Shown: one piece after another, positions 942 to 7,077 of the stretch
How the letters are laid out: each line of letters opens with the position of its first letter
How positions within the stretch are numbered: position 1 is the stretch's first letter
Made by a program: the position numbers and the translations under genes
Assembly: GCA_021161545.1 (NCBI GenBank)
Contig: JAGHAJ010000114.1
Span: 1 to 7,150 of the forward strand
DNA: 7,150 nt
Origin: Synergistota bacterium
GTDB lineage: Bacteria > Synergistota > JAGHAJ01
Direction of reading: 5' to 3'
The notes under the pieces: generated by a model
Seen by the model: only the letters and a program-made list of their open reading frames with translations
What the model was told of the DNA's origin: nothing
Databases searched by the model: none

Positions 942-2263
942 TGGAAAGAGAGTTTAAGGTTGGTCTGTTTGTAATCTTTGCGCTGTTGTTGATGACAGGC
1001 TTACTCATGTATAGTGGTAAGGTGGAGTTTGGTAAAAAATATTACATATTACATGTGGAATTTCCTTATATAGAAGGACTAAAGACTGGTGCAGAAGTAA
1101 GGGAATTGGGTGTTACGGTTGGGAAGGTTACGGCTATCCACATACATAGTGCCTCTGCTGTGAGGGTTACACTCTCTTTGAAGAAAGGTTATCCCTTGAG
1201 GAAGGGCACGAAAGCATTTATATCCATGCAGGGGGTGCTTGGTAGTAAGGTTGTGGATATAGAACCATCTCCTTCCGGGGAATTCCTGCCGAATGGGGCT
1301 GTGATTTCTGGTGAACCACCTGTGAGGTTGAGGGACATGATTGCAAAGTTAAACCGAAGCATTAAGGACTTTGGTGGTATACTGGCCTCTTTCAAGAGTT
1401 TTTGGGTAGCAAAAGGAGGAAAGGACAAGCTGTTGCGTCTATTATCTAACCTTCAGGAAGGTTCAGAGAGGATTTCGGAAGTTGTTGACAAAATAAACGG
1501 CATAGGGGATGAGCTGTCTGACAAACTGAATAGTCTAAGCAATGATGTTAGCTCCCTTGTTTCTGAGTTAAGGGGTATGGTTGATTCTAATAAAAGGGAT
1601 GTAAGGAGGGTAGTTATAAAGCTCAACAGAATATTGGCGGACTTTCAGGTGTTTGCAGCTCAGTTGAAGAAACGCCCGGATATTGTTAAAAACCTTGATA
1701 CCACTATTGTTTCTATAAGGCAGGCATCGGATAGTGTTAAGAAGTTTATCAATAGCCTTTCAGAGAGTGGTGGTGAACAAGGTGGTTCTGGGATAGTTTC
1801 GTCTATTCATAAGATAGAGAAGATGACGAAAGAGGCAGAAAGTGTAATAAAGAGTGTCAGGAGTTGGAGGTATCAGGGTGGGATAAGGTTGAGGTATGGC
1901 AGTACGGAGGGGGAGACGCTGAGCGACTTATGGTTCAGGCTTTCAAGAGAAGGTAGCCCCAATTCTGTCTTTATAGGGATAAACGATGTTGGAGGAGGTA
2001 ATCACTTTACTGGTGTTATAGAGAAGAGGTTGAACAGGAAAAGTGGTGTCATATTTGGAATTGTGAGGAGCAATCTCGGGGTTGGATATAGGTATTACTC
2101 TGACTCCTCTGCGCACATTTCAGCAGACCTGCTTATAGCACATAACTGGGAGGTGGACCTCTCAGGCTATTATCCGACCTCCCAGCATTACGGCCTGTAT
2201 CTGAGAATGGAAGATGTATTTAACGAACGGCGATTCTACATAGGTGCCGAGTATAGATTTTAA
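941..2263 (+). CDS. mlaD: MCE-domain protein MlaD with a C-terminal outer-membrane beta-barrel-like domain
   Basis: The 440-residue protein has four parts. (1) Residues 6-25 are a transmembrane anchor after a short basic N-terminus. (2) Residues about 33-115 are one MCE domain, recognisable by FPYIEGLKTGAEVRELGVTV, VGKVTAI and the QGVLGSKVVDIEPS end. MCE domains form hexameric lipid-conducting rings. (3) Residues about 130-307 are polar, heptad-like helix, probably crossing the periplasm. (4) Residues about 310-440 hold about ten short alternating-pattern strands ending FYIGAEYRF, with aromatic or hydrophobic residues at F432, I434, A436, Y438 and F440. That is the BAM-recognised beta-signal Y-x-F at the C-terminus. 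Proteobacterial MlaD is only about 180 residues and lacks parts 3-4. Established knowledge: Veillonella parvula has an MlaD with an outer-membrane barrel that bridges the envelope. By inference this protein does the same and substitutes for MlaA/MlaC, which are not adjacent. It is translated from an ATG overlapping the mlaF stop. Family call is secure; barrel assignment is from strand pattern only. Confidence 0.93.
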   Translation: MEREFKVGLFVIFALLLMTGLLMYSGKVEFGKKYYILHVEFPYIEGLKTGAEVRELGVTVGKVTAIHIHSASAVRVTLSLKKGYPLRKGTKAFISMQGVLGSKVVDIEPSPSGEFLPNGAVISGEPPVRLRDMIAKLNRSIKDFGGILASFKSFWVAKGGKDKLLRLLSNLQEGSERISEVVDKINGIGDELSDKLNSLSNDVSSLVSELRGMVDSNKRDVRRVVIKLNRILADFQVFAAQLKKRPDIVKNLDTTIVSIRQASDSVKKFINSLSESGGEQGGSGIVSSIHKIEKMTKEAESVIKSVRSWRYQGGIRLRYGSTEGETLSDLWFRLSREGSPNSVFIGINDVGGGNHFTGVIEKRLNRKSGVIFGIVRSNLGVGYRYYSDSSAHISADLLIAHNWEVDLSGYYPTSQHYGLYLRMEDVFNERRFYIGAEYRF

Positions 2264-3642
2264 GCGCTTTCATAAAATACCTTGTATCCCAGATAAGATG
2301 AGTATAGGTCTGCTTTGCTTGAGACCTCGAAGGGTGAATGCATTCCCAGTAGCGGAGGTCCTGCATCTACCACTTCTATTCCAAGGTTTGTCATGTATTG
2401 CGCTATTGTTCCACCACCACCTTCGTCAACCTTCCCAAGCTCTCCTGTTTGCCAGGGAACGTCGTTTTGGTTAAATATCCTCCTTATCAATGCCATGTAC
2501 TCTGCAGTCGCCTCACTTCCGCCTGCCTTGCCCCGAGAACCTGTGAACTTGGTTGTAGATATCCCGTAGCCTATCTTGGGAGTGTTTCTTATCTCATAGA
2601 CATCCTTGTATGTTGGATTTATACCACCTGTCACATCTGCAGAAATCCCTTTGCTGTTTTCTAAGACTTCTTCTACATCCGTTGCCTCACCTGCTAACCT
2701 TGTGAGCTTCCTAATAACGCCTTTCAGGAATGGTGATTTCATTCCGGTTATGCCTGTGCTACCTATTTCCTCTTTGTCCACGAATAGTGCGATCGTTGTG
2801 TATTCTGTATCGGTGTGCTCAAGTATTGCCTGCAGAGATGTAAATGCACATATCCTGTCGTCCTGTCCGTATCCACCTATGAGGCTTCTATCGAAACCTA
2901 CATACTGTGCCTTGAATGCAGGTGTTACCTCAATATCTGCGCTTACAAAATCCTCTTCTGTAATATCATACTCTTCTTTGAGTATCTTGAGGATGTTCTC
3001 CTTCACCCGCTCTTTTTCTTTGTCTTTTTTCTCCTTTGAAGATAGTTCCGGCATGCTTCCAGCAAGTATGTCCAGTGCTTCTCCCGTGACGGCTTCTTTT
3101 ACCTTCTTCTCCATCTGCTTCTGTGCGAGGTGTGGCAGCAGGTCTGCGATGGTGAATGCAGGTTCCTTTTCGCTTTCGCCGAGCACAAGGTCGAGCACTT
3201 TGCCGTTTTCTTTTACGAGGTGTATGTGTAGAGAAAGGGGGATGGCAACCCACTGGTATTTTTTGATACCACCGTAGTAGTGAGTTTCTAGCAGGGCGAG
3301 TTCACTATCCTGAAAGAGTGGTATCTGTTTGAGGTCTATGCGTGGCGCATCGATGTGGGATGCAACTATCCTGAAACCCTCTCTTAAAGGCTTTTTGCCA
3401 ATCCTTATCAGGGCTATGTTTCTTTCCCTTGCAGTTGCAAACAGTTTCTCCTTTGGGTTGAGCCCTTTTACTTCCTCCACAGACTTAAATCCATTTTCTT
3501 CGGCTATACGCCTTATCCACCTTACGCTTTCTATTTCAGTCTTTGCAGAGTTTAGAAATCTGATGTAGCTATCTGCTAACTTATCAGCTTCTTTCAATCT
3601 TCCCTTTTCTGAGAGTATTTCCCATGCACTTTTTTTCTCCAT
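2260..3642 (-). CDS. apeA: M18-family metalloaminopeptidase (aspartyl/leucyl aminopeptidase type)
   Basis: This is a cytosolic di-zinc exopeptidase that removes N-terminal residues from peptides, mainly in peptide turnover. It has 460 residues, like the bacterial M18 subgroup found in Thermotoga, Borrelia and clostridia. Expected ligands are present: H96 in ASHIDAPR, bridging D261 in GYGQDDR, catalytic and ligand glutamates E291/E292 in DKEEIGS, D336 in ISADV, and H435 in GMHSPFE. HYYGGIKKYQW (121-131) and KVDEGGGGTIAQY (404-416) are also typical of this subgroup. A Lys/Glu-rich stretch (200-225) lies in the insert domain. The ATG is fixed by a near-perfect AAAGGAGGT 7 nt upstream. The gene runs opposite to its neighbours, and its stop overlaps the mlaD stop, so it is not part of the mla operon. 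Nothing in it looks broken. Substrate preference cannot be read from the sequence. Confidence 0.95.
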   Translation of the reverse strand: MEKKSAWEILSEKGRLKEADKLADSYIRFLNSAKTEIESVRWIRRIAEENGFKSVEEVKGLNPKEKLFATARERNIALIRIGKKPLREGFRIVASHIDAPRIDLKQIPLFQDSELALLETHYYGGIKKYQWVAIPLSLHIHLVKENGKVLDLVLGESEKEPAFTIADLLPHLAQKQMEKKVKEAVTGEALDILAGSMPELSSKEKKDKEKERVKENILKILKEEYDITEEDFVSADIEVTPAFKAQYVGFDRSLIGGYGQDDRICAFTSLQAILEHTDTEYTTIALFVDKEEIGSTGITGMKSPFLKGVIRKLTRLAGEATDVEEVLENSKGISADVTGGINPTYKDVYEIRNTPKIGYGISTTKFTGSRGKAGGSEATAEYMALIRRIFNQNDVPWQTGELGKVDEGGGGTIAQYMTNLGIEVVDAGPPLLGMHSPFEVSSKADLYSSYLGYKVFYESA

Positions 3643-3871: not shown

Positions 3872-5644
3872 GTGAAGGTAAGAAGTATAGTGGCTAGTAT
3901 ATTCTTGTTTGTGCTTATGTGTGCTGCTGTTGGGTTTGCCTTTACACCTATGGATATTAAAGCACTGCACAAACAAGCTTGGCAGAAAGTGGTTGAGATG
4001 GCTGTTGCTGATAGGTGGCAGGCAAAGATGGCATTGTATGCTTCTCGCACGCTGATGGTAAAGCACCCAGAGTTGTACCTTCTGAATGACAGGATGTATA
4101 TTCACATATTCAGGAAAGCCAGGGGAATTATCAAGTTTAAGGAGATTTCGGCAGAAGACCCGTTATTCTTCAGCCATAGGAGAGAGGAACGGGTTCTTTG
4201 GATGTCTATAATTCGCTCTCTTAGAGGTTCAAGTAGAGGTGTCTTATCAGGTGCAAAGACATTTTCTTGGGGTTATGTAAAGAATTTTTCTGTATATAAC
4301 CCGGCTCCCTTGAGGGCATTTTATCCGGGGGAGAGCTGCTGGTTTAATGTGCTTGACTTACGCCTGCCGTTTTTCTGGAATACATTGTGGAACTATGATA
4401 AGAAAATACCTATTATTTCTCTTGGAGAGGGAAGATTCTTGAAGGCTCTTGATGAAGGTCATAAGGATGCCTACCTTCTTGTGACAGATAAAGGGTATGC
4501 TTATCCGTACTATGCTGGTAGCCTACATGACTGGAGGACTGGTGGGAAAATAAGTGCTATTCCCAGTGATGGCGGCAAGGTCATGCTTGTGATGAACACG
4601 AGATATGTGTGGTATCCACTATTCGGAAGAGATGATAGGGACAAGGATGAGGTTCTGAAAAAGGTAGTGAGAGACTATTGCAGAAAAGGTTATATACCAG
4701 AGCTCACCACCTTTGAACGCACTATTGTATCGAAGCTTAGGAAGGTTACGGAAGCGCTTGGTATAAAGGGGAAGGAATGGATAAGAGTGGCTGCTGGCCA
4801 CATCTTTGGTCAAAGGGTGCTTTGTTCATCACCAGAGACCTATGATATTTACAGTCATTTTCTCCCGGCAGATTTGTGGTGGTCCAGGAGACCCGTTCAC
4901 ACATCCTCTGAAAGTGTGTTATACATCGTTTCTATGGAATCTTACATTCTCTCCAATGCATTGAGTCCTGCAGGGGCGGTGCTTGCTGCTGTGCTGAAGG
5001 AAAATATCTCTAATCCGGCTGGTGCTTTGTCCTCGTTGAGCAAGAGATACCTTTCTTGGTTCAGGCTAACAAGGGGCTTTCCTGGCCGGAGATGGTTTGA
5101 TAACTGGGAACCTACCATGGATGACAAGATGATTTCCAGTGCCAGCAACTGCAGGATAGAAGCGGCTAATGTGGCTTCTGCGTTTTGGATTGTTCAACCC
5201 CCATGGAATGTATTTATGCCCAATTGGGATGCCAATGGTAGAGGAGGGCACGTTATAATCGGGATATACACTAAAGGGTATGCCGCTCTTCTGAGCAATG
5301 CAAAGTTTGTAAGTGGTAAGGGACCTTTGTATGCCTTTCACTACCATCATGGTCCAAGGGTTGTATTTGCCAATGTGATAGACGTGAAGTCGCTCGATTT
5401 CGTGGTGTTCCAGGAGAATTTGAGGTGGAGTTGGAGACGCCTTCACTACAAGGATACGATGTGGAGTAGTATGCCACTTTTTAAGACCGTAAATTTTACG
5501 AAGAGGTTGTGGAAGCTTGAACCGGGATTCAGGGTTGCAGACAAGTGGGAGGGTAAGATGTGGAGTAGCTTTGACAACTTTAATTTGTGGGTTTCCAATG
5601 TGGGTAAGAAGAGGTTTGTGAAGGTGAAGATTTCTATATTTTGA
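3872..5644 (+). CDS. Large secreted or periplasmic protein of unknown function
   Basis: I do not recognise this 590-residue protein. Residues 1-23 are a Sec signal peptide: basic K2/R4, hydrophobic core ending VGFA, predicted cut after A23. C17 is not in a lipobox, so it is not a lipoprotein. The mature part has no further clear transmembrane helix. It is rich in Trp, Tyr and Arg and looks like a folded mixed alpha/beta protein (helical about 30-85 and 255-300, helices again 350-400, then a strand-rich C-terminus ending KVKISIF). A weak clue is C427 in SNCRIEAANVASAF followed by H460 in GRGGHVIIGIY and N476. A Cys on a helix start, then His-strand, then a polar residue is the layout of transglutaminase/cysteine-protease-like cores. 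The GTG start is forced by an in-frame stop just upstream, and a GGGGG ribosome site lies 8 nt before it. It appears to be a single-gene unit with its own promoter. The reading frame is intact and its codon use resembles its neighbours. Confidence 0.85.
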   Translation: MKVRSIVASIFLFVLMCAAVGFAFTPMDIKALHKQAWQKVVEMAVADRWQAKMALYASRTLMVKHPELYLLNDRMYIHIFRKARGIIKFKEISAEDPLFFSHRREERVLWMSIIRSLRGSSRGVLSGAKTFSWGYVKNFSVYNPAPLRAFYPGESCWFNVLDLRLPFFWNTLWNYDKKIPIISLGEGRFLKALDEGHKDAYLLVTDKGYAYPYYAGSLHDWRTGGKISAIPSDGGKVMLVMNTRYVWYPLFGRDDRDKDEVLKKVVRDYCRKGYIPELTTFERTIVSKLRKVTEALGIKGKEWIRVAAGHIFGQRVLCSSPETYDIYSHFLPADLWWSRRPVHTSSESVLYIVSMESYILSNALSPAGAVLAAVLKENISNPAGALSSLSKRYLSWFRLTRGFPGRRWFDNWEPTMDDKMISSASNCRIEAANVASAFWIVQPPWNVFMPNWDANGRGGHVIIGIYTKGYAALLSNAKFVSGKGPLYAFHYHHGPRVVFANVIDVKSLDFVVFQENLRWSWRRLHYKDTMWSSMPLFKTVNFTKRLWKLEPGFRVADKWEGKMWSSFDNFNLWVSNVGKKRFVKVKISIF

Positions 5645-6385: not shown

Positions 6386-6460
6386 GGGCGGATAGCTCAG
6401 TGGCAGAGCACCTGCCTTACAAGCAGGGGGTCACAGGTTCGAGTCCTGTTTCGCCCACCA
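6386..6460 (+). tRNA. tRNA-Val (anticodon UAC)
   Basis: Complete cloverleaf. Acceptor GGGCGGA pairs with TTCGCCC (one G-U), D-stem is GCTC/GAGC, and the anticodon stem CCTGC/GCAGG encloses loop CTTACAA, giving anticodon UAC. The T-arm is ACAGG-TTCGAGT-CCTGT. Discriminator A and encoded CCA follow. It is the first gene of the six-tRNA operon. Confidence 0.97.
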
Positions 6461-6472
6461 GTGTGAGTGTAA

Positions 6473-6550
6473 GGGGCTGTGGTGCAGTCGGTTTAACACG
6501 CCTGCCTGTCACGCAGGAGATCGCGGGTTCGAGTCCCGTCAGCCCCGCCA
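6473..6550 (+). tRNA. tRNA-Asp (anticodon GUC)
   Basis: Acceptor GGGGCTG/CAGCCCC with discriminator G, the Asp identity base. The anticodon loop CTGTCAC in stem CCTGC/GCAGG gives GUC. T-arm is GCGGG-TTCGAGT-CCCGT, and CCA is encoded. The gene is separated from the next tRNA by a single base, so processing at the two ends must be tightly coupled. Confidence 0.97.
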
Positions 6551-6551
6551 A

Positions 6552-6627
6552 GGCGAGATAGCTCAGTTGGTAGAGCAGTGGACTGAAAATCCACGTGTCC
6601 CCCGTTCGATTCGGGGTCTCGCCACCA
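6552..6627 (+). tRNA. tRNA-Phe (anticodon GAA)
   Basis: Acceptor GGCGAGA/TCTCGCC, D-stem GCTC/GAGC, anticodon stem GTGGA/TCCAC with loop CTGAAAA (GAA), T-arm CCCCG-TTCGATT-CGGGG, discriminator A and encoded CCA. Confidence 0.97.
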
Positions 6628-6632
6628 TGGAT

Positions 6633-6708
6633 GCGGAAGTGGCTCAGTTGGTAGAGCATCTCCTTGCCAAGGAGAGGGTCGCGGGTTCGAGTCCCGTCTT
6701 CCGCTCCA
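6633..6708 (+). tRNA. tRNA-Gly (anticodon GCC)
   Basis: Acceptor GCGGAAG/CTTCCGC, D-stem GCTC/GAGC, anticodon stem TCTCC/GGAGA with loop TTGCCAA (GCC), T-arm GCGGG-TTCGAGT-CCCGT, discriminator U as in most bacterial tRNA-Gly, and encoded CCA. Confidence 0.97.
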
Positions 6709-6727
6709 TTTTTACGAATGTGAGGCA

Positions 6728-6803
6728 GGCGGCGTAGCCAAGTGGCTAAGGCAGAGGACTGCAAATCCTTTATTCCCCGGTTCGAATCCGGGCGCCGCCT
6801 CCA
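6728..6803 (+). tRNA. tRNA-Cys (anticodon GCA)
   Basis: Acceptor GGCGGCG/CGCCGCC with discriminator U, a Cys identity base. Short D-stem GCC/GGC, anticodon stem GAGGA/TCCTT (one G-U) with loop CTGCAAA (GCA), T-arm CCCGG-TTCGAAT-CCGGG, encoded CCA. Confidence 0.97.
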
Positions 6804-6817
6804 GAGCGGTGATAGAT

Positions 6818-6893
6818 TCCCCGGTAGCTCAATCGGCAGAGCGGGTGGCTGTTAACCACTAGGTTGCAGGTTCGAGTCCTGCCCGGGGAGCCA
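6818..6893 (+). tRNA. tRNA-Asn (anticodon GUU)
   Basis: Acceptor TCCCCGG/CCGGGGA with discriminator G, D-stem GCTC/GAGC, anticodon stem GGTGG/CCACT (one G-U) with loop CTGTTAA (GUU), T-arm GCAGG-TTCGAGT-CCTGC, encoded CCA. It is the last gene of the operon. Confidence 0.97.
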
Positions 6894-6968: not shown

Positions 6969-6993
6969 CTGGAACATACCTTTATACCTGTCT
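6969..6993 (+). repeat. 25-nt imperfect direct repeat, copy B (right of tRNA array)
   Basis: It matches 6296-6320 at 21 of 25 positions, with transitions only. It lies at the 3' break of the minus-strand transposase relic. In a different minus-strand frame from the transposase it reads DRYKGMFQ, against DRYEDMFQ in copy A. Confidence 0.6.
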
Positions 6994-7077
6994 GTGCATC
7001 TCAGAAAGAACTTCCTGGACATCTCTGGTAGTCATACCCTTAGAATAAAGAGTGATAATTTGATGCTCAATCTCAAA
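6982..7077 (-). pseudogene. IS256/Mutator-type transposase relic
   Basis: The minus strand is open for 31 codons, reading FEIEHQIITLYSKGMTTRDV followed by QEVLSEMHRQV and TAA (6984-6982). The segment (F-E-x-x-I-I-x-L-Y-x-K-G-M-T-T-R-D-V/I-Q-x-x-L-x-E-M/I) is the hallmark that precedes the catalytic region in IS256-family (transposase_mut) proteins, which are normally about 400 residues. An in-frame stop (7080-7078) lies just upstream, and similarity ends at EMH downstream, so only a fragment survives. The minus-strand sequence from 7150 to 7085 is open in another frame (YDLANKNDEVLHKLQQG) and could be frameshifted upstream coding, but I cannot match it. No terminal inverted repeats or target duplication are visible. 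Confidence 0.75.

Follow-up and report, generated by a model that had tools for sequence, protein, structure and literature searches.

The window, meaning the whole 7,150-nucleotide stretch analyzed here, is contig C168 of a draft genome that is 1.58 Mb in length, consists of 288 contigs, and is 82% complete. Its left edge carries the order mlaE (end)-mlaF-mlaD on the forward strand, which is the order expected for a transenvelope long MlaD of the Veillonella parvula type. The mlaE permease gene is truncated by the contig edge, and only its last 67 codons are present (2-205; PF02405, E 7e-16, profile positions 156-212 of 212). An N-terminal MlaE fragment is located at the edge of another contig (C92) of the same genome. 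The mlaF ORF, encoding the ABC ATPase, is read from a GTG at position 180 and extends to 941; translation may in fact begin a few codons further on. Its top NCBIfam model is MlaF (PRK11831, E 3e-68), with a score under the equivalog cut-off of that model. mlaF overlaps the stop of mlaE and abuts the start of mlaD. The mlaD ORF (941-2263) encodes 440 amino acids, matches PF02470 (E 7e-17), and is the sole MlaD match in the genome. The gene next to it, on the opposite strand (2260-3642), encodes an M18-type aminopeptidase (PRK02256, 643 bits).

The remainder of the window contains three further features. An ORF of 590 amino acids with an apparent signal peptide (3872-5644, forward strand) matches no Pfam or NCBIfam model and has no significant match among PDB sequences. 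Six tRNA genes (Val, Asp, Phe, Gly, Cys, and Asn) are clustered at 6386-6893 of the forward strand. Near the contig end, on the reverse strand (6982-7077), is the short frame FEIEHQIITLYSKGMTTRDVQEVLSEMHRQV, which we take to resemble part of an IS256-type transposase.

MlaD can be divided into four regions. Residues 2-26 (944-1018) are hydrophobic in sequence and form a predicted N-terminal transmembrane helix in the AlphaFold2 model. The MCE domain follows at residues 34-125 (1040-1315). PF02470 aligns with residues 34-109 at 61.9 bits (cut-off 25.1), placing the protein in the MCE/MlaD family, and the predicted strands, which span residues 35-125, match solved MlaD and Mce1 structures. The third region is a putative periplasmic needle at residues 130-307 (1328-1861), about 175 residues in length and predicted to be helical. 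Its hydrophobicity is periodic at 3.5-3.55 residues, beyond the 99th percentile for shuffled sequences, and the same period is present in most relatives. A helix rises 1.5 Å per residue; by this arithmetic, about 160 helical residues would extend for about 24 nm and could cross the periplasm. Confidence is low for the needle and for the placement of the domains in the full-length model. With that model, the best Foldseek match is Mce1 (8fed), and the matches among the best 50 concern the MCE domain only. A match of MlaD to Dpp_8_9_N (E 0.07) was rejected as chance.

The fourth region, residues 309-440 (1865-2260), is a predicted ten-stranded barrel. The initial annotation had described about ten C-terminal strands with alternating hydrophobic residues. 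Exactly ten are present in both AlphaFold2 models, that of the full-length protein and that of the isolated domain, at residues 309-320, 326-336, 341-350, 355-363, 368-375, 378-386, 392-399, 403-412, 417-426, and 429-439. The alternation of hydrophobicity along the strands exceeds that of shuffled sequences (difference of 2.88 vs 1.54 ± 0.36, p=0.0004). In the full-length model, built from 13 sequences, pLDDT over the barrel is mostly 55-78, a moderate confidence. The isolated-domain model, built from a 26-sequence alignment, has a mean pLDDT of 89.8 and a pTM of 0.79. The best solved matches are ten-stranded outer-membrane barrels of the Pla/OmpT type. The domain (residues 308-440, nucleotides 1862-2260) falls outside every Pfam and NCBIfam model; 2 of the 26 aligned sequences touch OMP_b-brl, with a best E of 0.41 that is not significant. 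Searched alone with Foldseek, the barrel has no match at E≤0.001. The sole PDB sequence matches to the barrel profile are antibody and nanobody chains (E>0.04), which were rejected as chance.

The VIA-align comparison places the outer-membrane protease Pla at the top (Z 15.9, rmsd of 2.4 Å over 136 residues); the designed membrane barrel TMB10 scores Z 12.5 and OmpT Z 11.8. Soluble ten-stranded barrels (nitrobindin type and DUF3598 proteins) score close to these membrane barrels, at Z of about 12-13, so the fold match by itself does not exclude a soluble domain. The C-terminal domain could then be a calycin/nitrobindin-like barrel that holds lipid in the periplasm, with no membrane barrel formed. 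We regard this as very unlikely, on account of the sequence of the domain as well as the top score of an outer-membrane protease. The C-terminus carries the beta-signal F432-x-I434-x-A436-x-Y438-x-F440 (2234-2260), which reads as the initial annotation gave it from I434 onward. Y438 and F440 are invariant in all 26 homologues, and the Y-x-F motif lies at the C-terminus or at most two residues from it; one homologue has two residues beyond the terminal Phe. The hydrophobic face ends on this Phe, as it does in BAM substrates.

The two faces of the barrel, assigned from sequence in 23 non-redundant homologues, also differ in composition. Charged and amide residues make up 11% of the hydrophobic face vs 36% of the other face. 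The polar face has conserved Gly and an invariant Asp, and its content of Gly, Arg, Asp, and Glu is typical of a narrow polar lumen. The aromatic residues of the hydrophobic face are concentrated at the strand ends (33% vs 16%). BamA is encoded in the genome, and its product likewise ends in Phe. Directly behind the BamA gene is a 418-amino-acid ORF (L020, 2430-3686, forward strand) with a strand-like C-terminal sequence. A membrane barrel is favored over a soluble one by the C-terminal signal, by the pattern of the two faces, and by BamA in the genome. The sequence and the models are therefore best read as an inner-membrane MCE protein that carries a membrane-type barrel at its C-terminus.

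Whether each chain closes its own barrel bears on how the tip of the needle would be built. Grasekamp and colleagues suggested fused barrels, because a single barrel is too narrow for lipid (PMC10665443), and in mycobacterial Mce1 the chains terminate in one small barrel that they share (PMC10665443). The six C-terminal segments would by this account form one composite, TolC-like outer-membrane pore that is continuous with the needle and not individually closed. The model of the isolated monomer points the other way, since its ten strands are predicted with confidence and overlay those of closed barrels across the 136 residues noted above, and the polar face suits a narrow closed lumen. A composite pore is thus improbable, if slightly less so than a soluble domain, and self-closed barrels are preferred. 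How six such barrels would be arranged is a more tentative matter. One possible but doubtful arrangement for the Synergistota MlaD has six ten-stranded barrels, each closed on its own, set in the outer membrane as a ring round the mouth of the needle, with lipid entering from an enclosed patch of the inner leaflet. PMC10665443 notes that no such hexameric ring has so far been described.

A phylum survey was carried out with profile searches of 185 Synergistota genomes. Full MlaD matches are present in 31 of the 185, and MlaE is present in the same 31. Apart from copies truncated at contig ends, each MlaD runs through to the end of the barrel profile, and no short MlaD was seen among the 185 genomes. 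All MlaD found in the phylum is of the barrel-ended type. None of the 185 genomes yielded MlaA or MlaC, and both searches were positive in the E. coli and Caulobacter controls. In the genome of the window, MlaA, MlaC, and TamB were not detected; at 82% completeness these single absences are weak, and the phylum-wide absences are stronger. LpxC is present in 166 of the 185 genomes, including that of the window. TamB, mostly as weak matches, is present in 82 of the 185 but in neither the genome of the window nor its relatives in family f3. Most members of families f2, f4, f6, and f12 have LpxC and lack a detectable MlaD or MlaE, which suggests that the Mla system was lost while LPS was kept. Matches to the MlaD profile do occur in f2, f4, and f6; these cover the helical region only, lie mostly in frames of 600-700 amino acids, and were not counted as MlaD. 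The families with LpxC and no detectable Mla offer a natural comparison for the role of the system.

The window itself belongs to Synergistota, and relatives of its MlaD are found in Acetomicrobium hydrogeniformans, Thermovirga, and several Synergistales genomes of that phylum. The closest belong to family f3, at about 30% identity, and one f3 locus (L003) has the same aminopeptidase behind mlaD on the opposite strand. The 60 nearest genomes compared are all related at the phylum level only, so that the lineage of the window stands alone among them. A single-sequence search of the contig collection with the window MlaD returned no relatives, and a search with a profile alignment did retrieve them. 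Outside the phylum, plasmid-borne relatives were sought, and the search yielded one mycobacterial MCE match only and no V. parvula MlaD. One 80% complete genome (G065, contigs C53 and C15) carries two distinct MlaD genes of the barrel type, both accompanied by an MlaE, which reflect either a duplication or a mixed bin. A Thermovirga-like mlaD is located on a contig labeled as a Thermococcus sp. MAG, an archaeon (L032). It is nearly identical to the copy at locus L033, and the contig is probably mis-binned.

Family clades are for the most part the same whether a tree is built on the barrel alone or on the MCE domain together with the needle, and all three trees join the window to f3 at 100/99. 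The barrel tree divides f7 into two adjacent groups and has a different deep branching order; those joins are uncertain on account of long branches. As the clades are largely shared, the fusion of MCE domain and barrel looks old, with vertical descent within the phylum. Synergistota probably had a three-gene MlaEFD bridge, with an MlaD that ends in a barrel, from early in the phylum. In line with this, published work regards the MlaA/MlaC shuttle of E. coli as having been added later.

Considered together, the locus very likely encodes a barrel-bearing MlaD of the V. parvula type within a three-gene mlaEFD system. Its product would be a presumed hexamer with a needle and self-closed barrels that forms a lipid bridge in place of MlaA and MlaC; the hexamer, the insertion into the outer membrane, the transport, and its direction are what we infer. 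MlaE and MlaF would form the ABC core in the inner membrane and drive lipid exchange there, with MlaD anchored beside this core by one helix. The MCE domains would assemble into a hexameric ring that collects lipid, and the helices would form the needle that guides it across the periplasm. Each C-terminal domain would be inserted by BamA as a ten-stranded outer-membrane barrel and would fix the tip of the needle. The bridge is taken to stand in for the shuttle because MlaA and MlaC were not detected. It would move phospholipid between the two membranes, most likely inward by analogy with V. parvula, and so keep the outer leaflet as LPS.

The role of the barrel itself is evenly balanced between two forms of this same bridge. 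It may serve only as a tether, mooring the needle to the outer membrane, with lipids passing beside it and not through it; this is a refinement consistent with the main reading. A phospholipid does not fit through a barrel of ten strands (PMC10665443), which favors such an anchoring role, and the polar inner face is in keeping with it.

Comparison with known systems separates the window MlaD from three better-known designs. The omptins Pla and OmpT share the ten-stranded outer-membrane barrel but are free-standing proteases with 8-11% identity, and the likeness observed is one of fold. The MlaD of E. coli and P. aeruginosa also has a transmembrane helix and an MCE domain and works with MlaF and MlaE. 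In contrast to the window MlaD, this type has neither needle nor barrel (183 amino acids in E. coli) and is partnered by MlaA, MlaC, and MlaB. The statement in the initial annotation that ordinary MlaD ends soon after the MCE domain holds for this Proteobacterial type only, as 85% of MlaD homologues are long (PMC10665443). In mycobacterial Mce1 (8fed), too, a long helical needle extends from an MCE ring. Mce1 is a heterohexamer, however, in which each chain gives one strand to the shared barrel, whereas the window MlaD has ten strands of its own.

The closest counterpart is V. parvula MlaD (419 amino acids), which has a transmembrane helix, an MCE domain, a helical region of about 150 residues, and a C-terminal ten-stranded barrel in the same order (Grasekamp and colleagues, Nat Commun 2023; PMC10665443). 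Its separate halves localize to the two membranes, and V. parvula mla mutants have signs of disturbed lipid asymmetry (PMC10665443). The same study inferred the barrel in 103 sequences from across the diderms, and it suggested that the ancestral core was MlaEFD (PMC10665443). The initial annotation was right that a barrel-bearing MlaD is established for V. parvula, and its ancestral or widespread bridge is the conclusion already drawn in that study. The two systems share the clustering of mlaE, mlaF, and mlaD and the lack of a detectable MlaA or MlaC. The surroundings differ: tolC and tamB come after mlaEFD in V. parvula, while in the window mlaD is followed by the opposite-strand aminopeptidase, in a genome with no detected TamB. 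An inner-membrane anchor and a barrel on one polypeptide, as first annotated, are thus supported by sequence and model, and the window MlaD fits the V. parvula-type long MlaD in each of the features compared. The finding is correct but not new as a kind, since the domain order was published for V. parvula (PMC10665443). A literature search pairing MlaD with Synergistetes found no paper, and what is new here is the phylum-wide Synergistota sample of an architecture already described in V. parvula.
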